Positions 1 to 33,969 of a stretch of DNA of 37,393 bases are shown here, piece by piece. The stretch is from Candidatus Ozemibacteraceae bacterium (GTDB lineage: Bacteria; Muiribacteriota; Ozemobacteria; Ozemobacterales; Ozemobacteraceae), in NCBI GenBank assembly GCA_937998695.1, contig CALLCO010000204.1:1-37393 (forward strand), in the 5' to 3' direction. Numbering within the stretch: the stretch's first letter is position 1; the number at the start of each line of letters is the position of its first letter. The translations under genes were made by a program, and so were the position numbers. The notes below the pieces were generated by a model. That model saw only the letters and a list, made by a program, of their open reading frames with translations, ran no database searches and was not told the DNA's origin.

Positions 1-146
1 CACGGATGGCGCTCCTCCGCAGACCCGACCGACACGAGGTCGGAAGTGGGCCGCGGGCGCCACGGATGGCGCTCCTCCGCGGACCCGACCGACACGAGGT
101 CGGAAGTGGGCCGCGGGCGCCACGGATGGCGCTCCTCCGCGGACCC
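1..146. repeat. 60-bp tandem repeat, about 2.4 copies (dispersed family 1)
   Basis: cacggatggcgctcctccgc[a/g]gacccgaccgacacgaggtcggaagtgggccgcgggcgc repeats with exact 60-bp period at 1, 61 and 121. Contains hairpins GCGCCA-CGGA-TGGCGC and CCGACC-GACACGA-GGTCGG. Confidence 0.95.
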
Positions 147-638
147 ACCGGTTGCCCTGGGCGAGAACGTGACTCCCGGCCCGGGAGGGGCGGCCGGGGT
201 TCCATCCGAGATGCCGCCCGGTACCCGAAAGACCCAGAGTTCATGCCGAGGAAAGGGGGGGCGGAAGATCCGGCCGGCCAGGGCCGCCCAGTCTGCCCCC
301 TGCGTCGCGCCTTCGCGAAACTCGTAGCCCAACCGGCCCAGTTGGTCGGCGAACGACCAGCTCTGAGCCAGGGTTTCGAGCGCCTGCCGGGCGCGGTCCT
401 CCTCCTGGCGGAGGTCCCATTCCTGCCGCCGCTGCCGCCGCCAGGCATCTCCGAGCTCGAGGGCGGCCAACGGAATCAGCGCCGCCAGGGCCATGACCAG
501 CGGCCGGACGACCGCCGCCCACCCCGACCTGGCCTGCCCTGAGGCATCGGCCAGGGAACCAGCCGAACCCAATGGACCCATTCGGGTCTGCGGTGACTCT
601 TTCCCAGAGCCAGGGGGCCCGGGCGTCCCTGTCTCCAT
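1..638 (-). CDS. Partial membrane sensor protein (3' end beyond left edge), possible third paralog of the SpoIIE-type sensor phosphatases; contains in-frame 20-aa repeats SAEERHPWRPRPTSDLVSVG
   Basis: Manual minus-strand translation from ATG at 638 is open to base 1: METGTPGPPGSGKESPQTRMGPLGSAGSLADASGQARSGWAAVVRPLVMALAALIPLAALELGDAWRRQRRQEWDLRQEEDRARQALETLAQSWSFADQLGRLGYEFREGATQGADWAALAGRIFRPPFPRHELWVFRVPGG... One TM helix then a coiled-coil region, as in the other two SpoIIE proteins. Absent from ORF track because no stop lies in the window. Confidence 0.6.
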   Translation of the reverse strand, partial: METGTPGPPGSGKESPQTRMGPLGSAGSLADASGQARSGWAAVVRPLVMALAALIPLAALELGDAWRRQRRQEWDLRQEEDRARQALETLAQSWSFADQLGRLGYEFREGATQGADWAALAGRIFRPPFPRHELWVFRVPGGISDGTPAAPPGPGVTFSPRATGGSAEERHPWRPRPTSDLVSVGSAEERHPWRPRPTSDLVSVGSAEERHP

Positions 639-813
639 TTTCAGACTCCGAGGGTGAAGAGGCCGGCCCTTCTTGGTGTCACGCCCGCTGCTCCGCATGA
701 TGGTTCATTATACCCGTCGCAGGACAGGGAACGCGAACTGTTGCTGGCCTCGAGGGAGTTCTGGGACCGCCTCCACCGCGCCCGCTGATTCCCTCGGTTG
801 CCCGGGCCCGGTA

Positions 814-7796: not shown

Positions 7797-7944
7797 GCCG
7801 CCCGCCAAGCCCAAGGGGGCCGCTCCGTCCCCTGCCCGCCGGGACATAGTCGCTCGCCATCCGGATGCCCTCACCGTCCGGATCGCCATTCCTAAAGGCG
7901 CGTCCCTGCTGGAGATCGAAGAGATCTGCACCAGTCTCGTATGA
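7797..7944 (+). pseudogene. Truncated ORF resembling the run-in to a Fis-type HTH domain; stop supplied by the family-2 element end
   Basis: MPPAKPKGAAPSPARRDIVARHPDALTVRIAIPKGASLLEIEEICTSLV*; 'IPKGASLLEIEEI' resembles the segment preceding Fis/NtrC-type HTH. TGA lies inside TATGACTACCG. Confidence 0.4.
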
Positions 7945-8205
7945 CTACCGTAGTTTCTCAACCCCCGGGGCCGGGTTCGCCTCCAGACACCATTCCGCAG
8001 GCTCGGATCGGTGGTCTCGGGTTCGGCTCGATTCGTCGTCCGAACCTCGCAGAATCGCTAGCCATGGCGATCTGCGAGGCGTGAGGTCATCCAGGCCTCG
8101 CGGGACGTCGAAGCGGCCTCTCCCTCGGACCGATCCGGCCTGCTCCATGTGTGTCTTCCGGCGAATCCGGCCCCAGGGCGGATGTTTCAAATACGGTAGT
8201 CATAC
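7939..8205. mobile_element. Foldback/MITE-like element (dispersed family 2), complete copy
   Basis: 14-bp perfect terminal inverted repeats GTATGACTACCGTA (7939-7952 / 8192-8205). Further paired blocks: GGGGCCGGGTTCGCC (7967-7981) vs ggcgaatccggcccc (8160-8174); AGACAC vs GTGTCT; GCAGGCTCGGATCGGT (7997-8012) vs accgatccggcctgc (8129-8143); central hairpin CCTCGCAGAATCGC-TAGCCATG-GCGATCTGCGAGG (8045-8079). Confidence 0.8.
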
Positions 8206-18953: not shown

Positions 18954-19192
18954 ATGATCCGGTCGCTGCATCGCGAGAAAGGCCTCGATCAACGCGAGAT
19001 CGCGGTCATGGTGGGAATGAACCAGCTCATAATCAATGTCTCCGACCTGGCGGTCCCCAGGGGAACGCCCGGGGATTCTTCTATCGCGCCCTCCCGCGCG
19101 CCCCTAATATGACTACCGCAGTTTCTCAACCCCTGGGAGGTCACTGACCGGAACGGGGAGCCGATCCCCGATGGCCGGCACGGCCGACTGAG
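18954..19192 (+). pseudogene. Composite remnant: transposase-like HTH fragment joined to a SpoIIE-sensor N-terminal fragment, split by a family-2 terminus
   Basis: MIRSLHREKGLDQREIAVMVGMNQLIINVSDLAVPRGTPGDSS... (cf. MNQLEIHVSDLAVQGNTRGFIS in the 15939 gene), then tatgactaccgcagtttctcaacccctggga, then VTDRNGEPIPDGRHGRLS* (cf. VTDRNGDLIAE). Confidence 0.75.
19108..19138. repeat. Solo left terminus of family-2 element
   Basis: TATGACTACCGCAGTTTCTCAACCCCTGGGA vs 7940-7970 TATGACTACCGTAGTTTCTCAACCCCCGGGG. Confidence 0.8.
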
Positions 19193-28264: not shown

Positions 28265-28819
28265 ATGACCAGTCAGCACGTGAGCTTCACCCGGTTCCCG
28301 ATCCTCCTGGCGGTCCTGGCGACCCTGGCCCTGACCACCCCCCTGCTGGCCGGCCCCTTCAACGACCAGGCCGTGCGCCTCAGTTCGGGCGATTCCTATG
28401 ACTCGCCCGCCGTCAGCCCCAGCTCCCGGCGTCCCGCCCCTCCCCCCCGCCGGCCCGCCGCCCCCGTGCCGCCTCCTTCCACTGGCGGATATGTCAGTGC
28501 CAACGTCGGCCCCTTCTCGGTGACCGTCTCCGGGAATGGCCGTGATCCGGCGGGTATCTCGTTCGGCGTGAGCGCCTTCGGCGGCAAGGCTTCGATCTCC
28601 ACCAACGGCACCGTCTGCGTCGGCGGTTCCCTCAGCGGCGGGGCCGGCCCTTACGGATCCGTCGGCCAGTCCGTCTGCCGCGACCCCCGCTCCCCCTACC
28701 CCAAGACCACCACCACCGGCGGGGTCGGGATCGGCCTGGGCGGCGACGCGATCTCGGTCTCGGTCACCGGCGGGGCCTACCACTCCCGGTACGTGCCGAT
28801 CGGCGCTCCGATCCGCTGA
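28265..28819 (+). CDS. Secreted Gly/Ser/Pro-rich protein of unknown function
   Basis: Signal peptide FPILLAVLATLALTTPLLAG; SD aaggagaa. Confidence 0.75.
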   Translation: MTSQHVSFTRFPILLAVLATLALTTPLLAGPFNDQAVRLSSGDSYDSPAVSPSSRRPAPPPRRPAAPVPPPSTGGYVSANVGPFSVTVSGNGRDPAGISFGVSAFGGKASISTNGTVCVGGSLSGGAGPYGSVGQSVCRDPRSPYPKTTTTGGVGIGLGGDAISVSVTGGAYHSRYVPIGAPIR

Positions 28820-28826
28820 CCGCCCG

Positions 28827-28975
28827 CCAGCCCTGACCCAGCCTGACCAGCCTGACCAACTCGGCCAGCCTGACCAACTCGACCAGCCTGACCAACTCAA
28901 CCAGCCTGACTAACTCGACCAGCCTGACCAGCCTGACCAGCCGAGACAAGCCTGACCCAATCCGACCAGACCCGG
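28827..28975. repeat. Intergenic GACCAGCCT / GACCAACTC minisatellite
   Basis: Alternating 9-bp units cctgaccaa-ctcgaccag, about 15 imperfect copies. Confidence 0.9.
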
Positions 28976-30906: not shown

Positions 30907-33900
30907 TCAGACCCGGCGTTCGAGGACGACCACCGTGAAGTCGTCGGGGCGCGGCCGGCCGGCCTGGACGCAGGGGTGGCGCTCGACCAGCAGGCGGGGC
31001 ACCTGATCGAGAGGCTCGCCACTCCACCGGATGAAGTGAGGCAGGAGTTCGTCGAACCCTGAAGCTCCCTTGACCCGTGACAGCGATTCCGCCAACCCGT
31101 CGGTGTAGCAGAGCAGACGTTCCCCGGGCTGCAAGATCAGCCGCCGCGGCTCGACCTTGACGGTCGGACGGATGCCGATGGGGAAGCCGCGCGTGGGCTG
31201 CTCGCGCAGGCGCCCATCGACCGTGCGCAGGTGCGGGTAGGTGTGGCCGCAGTTGAAGATCTCGAGCTCGCCGGGGGCGGTGCCGGTCCGCACCAGGGTC
31301 ATGGGCAGGAAGGCCCGTTTCCCCATCGTGGAATAGACGACCTCGTTGAGCGTCGCCAGCAGTTCGGAGGTCGGGACCCGCTGCCGGCGTGCCGCCAGGA
31401 CGGTGGCCTTGGCCATCGCCATGATCAGGGAGGCCGGCACGCCGTGGCCCGAGACGTCACCCAACAGCACGGTCAGGCTGCCATCCTCTTCCGCCACGTA
31501 GTCGAAGTAATCACCACCCAGCTCGGAGGCCGGCAGGGAGAACCCCGCCACGGCCCATTCCCCCGCCGCCAGGAAGGCCGGCGGCCACAGGCGTTCCTGC
31601 ACCGCGCGACCGAGGCCTAACTCCTCGAACCGTTCCAGCAGGCTGTTGAACGCGGTGGCCAGCTCGCCCAGCTCGTCACGATCGCCGGGCGGCAAGCGGC
31701 GATCGTACCGCTTGGCGGCGAGATCGCGCAGACCATCCCCCAAATTGGCCACCGGGCCGAGGACCGCCCCCGCCAGCAGATGGGCCAACAGCGCGGTGAA
31801 CACCACCGCTCCCAGCGCCGACCAGAGCATGCGCGTCCGCAGCGCGCCCAGTGCCGCCTCGAGGGGAGCGGCCGGCACGAACGCCAGCAGCAACCGCCCA
31901 CGCATCTGCTGTCCCGGCCACCCGGCGATCAGGCGCGGCTGCCCTTCGAAGGGGATCATCCCCGTGGTCAGCTGCCCGCGTCGACGCAACGCGTGGAAGA
32001 AGGCCCGCAGGGGCCGGTTGACCCGCAACCAGGGGCGCATGGGAAAAACCGCCCGCACCGTGTCCGGCCGCTCGGGGGTTTGCCCCGCCCCGGTCAGCCG
32101 ATAGACCGGCGTCTCGCGCACCGCCGCCAGACGGGTGCCGTCCTCGAGGGGCCGCACCGGCAGAAAGCGACGCAGATGGAAGTCGACCAGATCCTCGTAG
32201 CGCCAATACAGCACGATCAGGGCGGGTCTCGGCCTGGCCTGGCCGATCAACTCGGAAAAAAGGAAGCCCTGCTCCCGACCCCACCCGAACGGCACGACCC
32301 CACCCGTGGGGAATGGAAATGGGGTGCAACCATACGGCAGCTCCGGGACCGGCACCGCGGCGGGAGGCCCCCCCGCGCGGATCGCTCCTTCCACAGCCGC
32401 CGCCGGGCCGGAAGCCCTTGGCCACCCAGCCGATCCGGCAGGGACGGCACCCGCAAGGTGCGAGGCCAGCATCTCCAGGACGGGGTTGCCGTGGAACGTC
32501 CCACCGATTTCCCGAACCGGTTCCCCCGGGCGCCACAGGAATCCGCCCCGGGCGCGCAGTTCCGGGATCTGCTCGGCAAAGGCCAGGCCTAACCGCTCGA
32601 GGGGGACCGGGGGTACGGAAGCCGCCGGTGGCAGCAGGCGCCGAACACTCGCTTCCGCCTCGATCCGGCCAAGGGCCAGCTTGCCGTCGAAATCGCGGAG
32701 GAGGTCGGCCAGCCGCTGCCAGGTCTCCTGGAAGAGGATCTGCCGGCGCTGGTGCAGGTGGTCCCAGGCCAGGAAACCCAGGATGGTGGCGGGAATGACC
32801 GCGGTCAGCGCGAACAGGGCGAGGATCTTCCAGCGGATCGACACGAACGGGCGCTGCGACGACGCGGTCAGGAAGAACAGCACGGTCGCCAGACCGACCA
32901 GCAGAGCGAGTTCTCCCCACCGGAAGGCGGTCCTCAGCTCGTGATCGGCGGTCCCGCCGTCATCGGGGGCGGCCGCGGCCAGCAGATAGCGGGAATCCAA
33001 CCCCAGAGTCGCCCATAGGTGTCCGCCCTGCCGGAGGCGTGTCCCGGGTTCGTGGGCATAGCGGGCCCCGATGGTGTCGAGGTCGTGGCGTGGACCGCCC
33101 ATCGGCCCGGCCACGAGACGCCGCGCCTGCAGATCGTACAGGAACAACGACCGTTCCGGAGTAGAGCGGGCGAGCAAGGCCCGACGAAGGCCGACCTGGG
33201 GGCCACGGAGGAGCGCCATCGGTGCCACCCCAGGCCCATCCCTGCCGGGCGGCGAGGTGGGTCTGCGGAGGAGCGTCATCCCTGGGGGCCGGGCGACGGA
33301 GGGGAGCCACCCGTCCGCTTCCCCCTGGAGGCCGGGTTGATCGGAATGACGGTGGAAAAAGGCGAGCAACCCCCAGGAAGGGGCGAGATGAAAGAAGACA
33401 CCCGCCTTGCGCGCCCGATCGGGGAAAGCCAGCCAGCCCGGCGCCGTTTCGAGGGCGGCAAGATCGGCAGGCTCACCGCCAAGCAGGTCGGCCACAGCGG
33501 CGGCCCGGGGGGCGAGGCGGCCAGCCACCCGCCCCCGGTCGCGGCGCAGGGCCGCCATCAGGGCTTCGGCGGGGGCAGCGGGTTCCTTCCCCCCCACCTG
33601 CGCGACCAGGCGGTCATCGGCCCCGAACAGGAGGAAGGTCGCCATCCCTGGGAAGCGCCGCGCCTGAGCCCGGGTGCGGGCCTGCAGGAAGCGCATCGGT
33701 TGGGGGTGCCGCAAGGCCCGCCGGACCATCGCCCGCCACGACCGCCGCGCCGCCTCGCCCGGGTCGGCCAGCGGTTGCAGCTCGATCAGCAGGTCGTCCA
33801 GGGCGGCCCAGGTCAGGCTGCGGGCCGCTTCCCGGCGGGCGTCGAGCAGGGCCCCCAGGCCGAAATCGGCCAGCAGCAGGGGGAACCCGCCGACCAAGGT

Positions 33901-33969
33901 CAGCAGGATCCAGGTGCGCAGGGCGGCCGGCCGCCGGTCAGCCGCGGGCGGAAGATGCATCGATGACAT
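30907..33969 (-). CDS. Second membrane-anchored SpoIIE-type PP2C phosphatase (1020 aa)
   Basis: TMs; HAMP-like LGPVANLGDGLRDLAAKRYDRRLPPGDRDELGELATAFNSLL; PP2C LGGDYFDYVAEEDGSLTVLLGDVSGHGVPASLIMAMAKA ... RLLCYTDGLAESL ... DDFTVVVLERRV. Confidence 0.92.
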   Translation of the reverse strand: MSSMHLPPAADRRPAALRTWILLTLVGGFPLLLADFGLGALLDARREAARSLTWAALDDLLIELQPLADPGEAARRSWRAMVRRALRHPQPMRFLQARTRAQARRFPGMATFLLFGADDRLVAQVGGKEPAAPAEALMAALRRDRGRVAGRLAPRAAAVADLLGGEPADLAALETAPGWLAFPDRARKAGVFFHLAPSWGLLAFFHRHSDQPGLQGEADGWLPSVARPPGMTLLRRPTSPPGRDGPGVAPMALLRGPQVGLRRALLARSTPERSLFLYDLQARRLVAGPMGGPRHDLDTIGARYAHEPGTRLRQGGHLWATLGLDSRYLLAAAAPDDGGTADHELRTAFRWGELALLVGLATVLFFLTASSQRPFVSIRWKILALFALTAVIPATILGFLAWDHLHQRRQILFQETWQRLADLLRDFDGKLALGRIEAEASVRRLLPPAASVPPVPLERLGLAFAEQIPELRARGGFLWRPGEPVREIGGTFHGNPVLEMLASHLAGAVPAGSAGWPRASGPAAAVEGAIRAGGPPAAVPVPELPYGCTPFPFPTGGVVPFGWGREQGFLFSELIGQARPRPALIVLYWRYEDLVDFHLRRFLPVRPLEDGTRLAAVRETPVYRLTGAGQTPERPDTVRAVFPMRPWLRVNRPLRAFFHALRRRGQLTTGMIPFEGQPRLIAGWPGQQMRGRLLLAFVPAAPLEAALGALRTRMLWSALGAVVFTALLAHLLAGAVLGPVANLGDGLRDLAAKRYDRRLPPGDRDELGELATAFNSLLERFEELGLGRAVQERLWPPAFLAAGEWAVAGFSLPASELGGDYFDYVAEEDGSLTVLLGDVSGHGVPASLIMAMAKATVLAARRQRVPTSELLATLNEVVYSTMGKRAFLPMTLVRTGTAPGELEIFNCGHTYPHLRTVDGRLREQPTRGFPIGIRPTVKVEPRRLILQPGERLLCYTDGLAESLSRVKGASGFDELLPHFIRWSGEPLDQVPRLLVERHPCVQAGRPRPDDFTVVVLERRV
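33185..33290. repeat. Two diverged 60-bp units of dispersed family 1, in frame within the SpoIIE gene
   Basis: Minus strand ATGACGCTCCTCCGCAGACCC (ATG at 33279) and ATGGCGCTCCTCCGTGGCCCC (ATG at 33219), spaced exactly 60 bp; protein GMTLLRRPTSPPGRDGPGVAPMALLRGPQVG. Confidence 0.8.

Follow-up and report, generated by a model that had tools for sequence, protein, structure and literature searches.

Rickettsia and Wolbachia provide the best-known insertions of palindromic sequence in coding frames, and some REPs give examples in other phyla. Elements derived from IS200/IS605 have hairpin ends, leave no long target duplication and insert 3' of a short motif that is like their right end. A guide model for elements of the IS200/IS605 type has been published (PMC8266576). 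Rickettsia palindromic elements (RPEs) are 105–146 bp long and form one long stem-loop (PMC2229807), and together with intragenic REPs (PMC3733652) they are the precedents for palindromic insertion in frame. REPs lie mostly between genes, and some of their intragenic copies are in frame (PMC3733652), while among bacterial MITEs (Correia/NEMIS, ERIC, YPAL) some are fused in frame to ORFs (PMC2229807). Here we describe a further case from Candidatus Riflebacteria, a 60-bp repeat that most probably belongs with the non-autonomous miniature mobile elements of REP/RPE type, as one family in a small set.

The stretch analysed (the window, 37,393 nucleotides) is the whole of contig C204 in genome G000 (4.53 Mb, 324 contigs, 92% complete), and the contig starts inside an array of the repeat. 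Sequence and ORF reading placed 2.4 head-to-tail copies of the 60-bp unit at positions 1-146 with the minus-strand frame kept. The sequence-only reading of about 2.4 near-identical units in that frame is borne out by a tandem-repeat call at 1-150 (TRF; period 60, 2.5 copies, 97% match), by 98% identity between the two full units and by the open frame from 698 to 3, which reads ...ATG-GSAEERHPWRPRPTSDLVSVG-SAEERHPWRPRPTSDLVSVG-SAEERHP, such that the frame starting at 698 is lengthened by the array as (SAEERHPWRPRPTSDLVSVG)n. The contig start cuts the array, which may therefore be longer than the 2.4 units; contigs C124 and C41 of the same genome likewise end within copies, and assembly breaks at such repeats would explain the cut.

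The gene carrying the array had been taken for SpoIIE-like, an identity that we dropped. The 232-codon fragment had no match in Pfam, and its orthologues in a 97%-complete congener (G001, 76% identity) and in a sister species of the same genus (G002, JAAYVD01, 66% identity) are both HAMP plus class III adenylate/guanylate cyclase proteins that lack the repeat at the matching variable linker. The host gene is thus identified by orthology as a predicted HAMP/class III cyclase sensor, and a search of the G000 assembly for its remainder with the G001 orthologue as query gave no match. A SpoIIE gene does occur elsewhere in the window and carries its own pair of copies, which is decayed (BLAST 76% identity, E 4e-9; covariance model 24.2 bits for 33199-33252) and contributes the peptide MTLLRRP...MALLRGP.

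Table 1 Positions of element copies and their host genes in the window, and placement of in-frame insertions in other genes (CM, covariance model).
Feature	Position	Strand	Basis or remark
Tandem array, 2.4 units of the 60-bp element, cut by contig start	1..146	- (element reads 146->1)	TRF, BLAST, CM
First full unit (GGGTCC...CGGTC)	87..146	-	CM match 85-146, 92.8 bits; fold; covariation
First full unit, inner parts	hairpin 1 146-108; linker 107-104; hairpin 2 103-89	-	fold, covariation
Second full unit; hairpin 1 86-48, hairpin 2 43-29	27..86	-	CM match 25-86, 92.8 bits
Third unit, shortened by contig end (GGGTCTGCGGAGGAGCGCCATCCGTG)	1..26	-	sequence; 26-bp remnant
Host ORF of array, N-terminal 232 codons only; repeat in variable linker after ...PFPRHELWVFR	3..698	-	ORF reading, orthologue comparison
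1020-aa HAMP-SpoIIE sensor phosphatase gene with degenerate copy pair in frame	30907..33969	-	ORF and domain search
Degenerate element pair, same 60-bp spacing, inside SpoIIE gene, opposite orientation to gene	33199..33284	+	BLAST, CM, inverted repeats I2 and I4
DNA polymerase III delta' of G002, two tandem units			in frame
NadB	between FAD domain and C-terminal domain		in frame
HemC of G004, two units	between the counterparts of residues 251 and 256 in E. coli HemC		in frame
MiaB-like radical-SAM protein	between its two domains		in frame
C11 peptidase	just after signal peptide		in frame

The consensus of the element is GGGTCCGCGGAGGAGCGCCATCCGTGGCGCCCGCGGCCCACTTCCGACCTCGTGTCGGTC(GG), in which a conserved linker, CACTTCC, connects two hairpins. 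The sequence-only reading gave each unit two 6-bp hairpins; their number holds and their sizes do not, since folding yielded a bulged stem of 9+6 bp for hairpin 1 and a stem of 5–7 bp for hairpin 2. Folding of the single DNA strand was 4.3 standard deviations better than that of shuffles (z = −4.3). Among 38 copies from four species, pairing was retained in 84.7% of cells compared to 40–49% with partners slid, two-sided compensatory changes numbered 60 compared to 22.9 ± 3.4 in shuffles, and the covariation score was 0.244 compared to 0.099 (reached by 0 of 500 shuffles), where common ancestry of the copies overstates the shuffle significance and the slid controls are free of that weakness. 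Stems seen in hairpin 2 include GAC/GTC, CCC/GGG, CGC/GCG and AGC/GCT, and at locus L116 hairpin 1 has a wholly different sequence yet pairs perfectly. Letters are conserved in three places, namely the unpaired linker CACTTCC, the TCSTG loop and GGTCGG at the terminus, in which GG follows the right end GGTC. Two variants in the sister species carry 14–15 extra bases within hairpin 1 (L110:2002-2078 and L114:2002-2077).

The element resembles RPEs and the Wolbachia WPE as a palindromic repeat that occurs in intergenic sequence as well as, in frame, within conserved protein-coding genes, with an extra peptide that, as predicted here from the genes, is tolerated. Unlike RPEs it is 60 bp long, folds into two separate hairpins, prefers a GGNY^GG target and occurs in another phylum, and its sequence is not that of RPEs. 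Short hairpins that are dispersed, tandem or paired and mostly intergenic are shared with REPs (GTAG and CGTC super-families) and REPINs, but the element is built of direct two-hairpin units instead of inverted dimers, and neither the GTAG nor the CGTC tag occurs in its conserved columns. The REPtron arrangement, a RAYT flanked by repeat copies, is absent from G000 and G002, where the RAYT-like genes are flanked by unrelated inverted repeats. Hairpin ends recall non-autonomous elements derived from IS200/IS605, and the GGNY^GG bias and one empty site would fit insertion 3' of a right-end-like motif with no long target duplication, except that no autonomous partner with the element's ends was found. 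Like bacterial MITEs the element is small, non-autonomous and in some copies fused in frame to ORFs, whereas it has neither terminal inverted repeats joining both ends nor a TA duplication. It is therefore outside the GTAG/CGTC REPs, whose tags it lacks, and outside the RPEs by size, structure and sequence.

A genome-wide search showed the repeat to be dispersed, so that its restriction to one locus, one of the outcomes that would have counted against the sequence-only reading, is refuted. An 86-base query had 43 BLAST matches in G000, and a 62-nt covariance model built on 24 copies (matches counted at E < 0.1) found 53 in G000, 28 in the sister species, and 6 and 3 in members of two other genera (G004 and G010). 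Searched with the same model, a further 33 relatives had no element, among them the 97%-complete congener. A pattern for the tail alone was present in 4 of 40 genomes of the phylum, the same four that had model matches (12 in G000 and 94 in G002), and its reversed control gave 0 matches in the 40 genomes. Related records bearing the repeat carry the names Candidatus Riflebacteria and Candidatus Ozemobacteraceae, which places the host in that phylum. The majority of copies consist of one unit each, and their flanks are unrelated, which indicates that they are insertions and not segmental duplications.

Bases to the left of the copies were biased, with G at −4 in 41 of 57, G at −3 in 42 and C or T at −1 in 40. 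The preferred target, as read from these flanks, is GGNY^GG, like the last four letters of the element itself, GGTC. The gene for DNA polymerase III delta' in the sister species carries two tandem units, and its orthologues in G000 and G001 provide empty sites that differ from it by exactly 120 bp (CCGAC[120]GGGTCGCCC compared to GAGCGGGGCGCCC). This exact gain excludes a long target duplication, in what is the single clean empty site read at the DNA level and one with GG at both junctions, so that a 2-bp duplication would look like none.

These features suggest that the element would move as a folded single strand, its hairpins recognised by a trans-acting nuclease, probably of the HUH type (Y1), whose cut would fall behind GGTC, the right end, and which would link this end to a similar GGNY site without creating a long target duplication. 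Head-to-tail arrays would follow, since GGTC at the end of one copy and the GG next to it again make a good target. In an inspection by eye for an autonomous element with the same ends, no obvious transposase was seen among the ORFs upstream of seven tails that have unusual heads. That the element is a REP moved by the genome's own RAYT, a TnpA_REP-like gene on contig C123, is unlikely, and we demoted the RAYT from cognate transposase to rival when its flanking inverted repeats proved to differ from the element. The only Y1 transposase in each of the element-rich genomes G000 and G002 is RAYT-like (64% identical to each other; NF047646 64 bits, compared to an NCBIfam cut-off of 80), the congener G001 lacks both the element and such a gene, and hairpins with a GGNY target resembling the right end fit single-strand recognition. 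However, the inverted repeats around these genes are different ones (GAGTTCCGGGGACATGATACCGAATTC in G002), their 1.5-kb flanks contain no copy of the element, RAYT-like genes also occur in relatives without the element, no Y1 gene was detected in the element-bearing G004 and G010 (both incomplete genomes), and the GTAG tag is absent from the element. Across the family, the RAYT also tracks the element poorly. The inverted repeats that bracket the RAYT-like genes are long and of the GAGTTCCGGGGACATGATACCGAATTC type in both species (L060:1016-2250 and L068:1119-2082), a likeness to 'TIRYT' genes (PMC3733652) that amounts to a TIRtron in Riflebacteria.

Copies were depleted in genes called by a codon-usage gene caller trained on element loci, with 17 of 40 in G000 (P = 2 × 10−10) and 13 of 25 in G002 (P = 5 × 10−5) within genes, compared to 86% coding in the flanks. 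A count of in-frame genic against intergenic copies, suggested with the sequence-only reading, thus put 30 of 65 in open frames, where miscalled starts may account for some N-terminal cases, and 35 of 65 between genes. The copies did not gather at gene ends (uni 18, conv 7, div 7), and a 3'-end regulatory role was set aside given this lack of orientation bias. A structured RNA or regulatory element (terminator, mRNA stabiliser or attenuator) spread by ordinary duplication would account for the strong RNA-like covariation and for the many intergenic copies, but we consider it improbable, as the Rfam 15 covariance models gave no match, gene ends are not favoured, copies also lie in coding frames in either orientation, and unrelated flanks mark insertions, not duplicated segments.

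Hosts of in-frame copies with intact downstream domains include delta', NadB, HemC, a MiaB-like enzyme and a C11 peptidase, whose orthologues lack the insert. Genic copies use at least five of the six frames and both orientations, and the repeat peptide is for this reason probably not functional. Selection on proteins for a useful peptide or linker module might be read from the sense frame GSAEERHPWRPRPTSDLVSVG, which genic copies use more often than any other (about 11 of 30), but such an origin is highly improbable where other frames and both orientations are in use, more than half of the copies are intergenic, and base pairing, not codons, governs conservation. Genic copies are probably those that selection tolerated, an insertion in a linker or loop surviving as ~20 extra residues. 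Such survival would follow where stops are few and the inserted length is a multiple of three: among 72 copies, picked by match to the 62-nt model and hence biased toward a 60-bp length, 59 had a unit length divisible by three and 47 were open in all six frames, compared to 28 in shuffles. Insertions in the conserved delta' and HemC make it testable whether mobile hairpins routinely give proteins new loops. An assembly or binning artefact (chimeric contigs, collapsed repeats) could produce contigs that end inside copies (C204, C124 and C41), but is barely credible and in the main refuted by independent assemblies of other species that bear the element family with unique flanks, and by insertions located in orthologous genes.

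The best reading is accordingly that of a new family of REP/RPE-like miniature mobile elements that works like RPEs and intragenic REPs. The original view of an in-frame palindromic insertion that recalls RPEs with a different sequence is upheld by the genome-wide search, the genic count and the empty sites.

A second, 81-bp family in the sister species shares the tail and target of the 60-bp element and has another head (GGCCCCTTTGCGATGCGCGAAACTGGCGTTTCGCGCCGCCATCCGTGGCGGCAAAGGGG plus tail). Its copies number in the dozens (L165, L132, L123, L148 and others), some in tandem at 81-bp spacing and some in coding frames (nadB). Tail matches with hairpins were also found, at 1–3 per genome, in MAGs of other phyla, namely Spirochaetes (L154, L298 and L300) and Bacillota (L128 and L296), and in L184; at this low copy number the matches in other phyla are leads only. 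The Spirochaetes copies have a longer repeat around the tail in common.

The REP/RPE-like family may belong to a wide and as yet undescribed class of modular hairpin transposons with a constant right end, GGNY^GG targeting, exchangeable left hairpins and a dedicated single-strand nuclease unrelated to known RAYTs, a possibility that we raise tentatively and with some doubt. The constant right end would be CACTTCC, a hairpin with a TCSTG loop and GGTC; the left-end hairpins would be those of the 60-bp and 81-bp families, with similar tails in Spirochaetes and Bacillota MAGs. The constancy of the tail under swapped heads, together with the clear target motif, offers a starting point for identifying the mobilising enzyme.

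Two further repeats occur in the window. The sequence TATGACTACCG[TC]AGTTTCTCAACCCC[CT]GGG is present at 7940-7969 and 19108-19137 (93% identical), and its first bases recur in the right flank of L092, perhaps as a second dispersed family. An 18-bp tandem array (GACCAGCCTGACCAACTC) of 5.4 copies spans 28816-28957.
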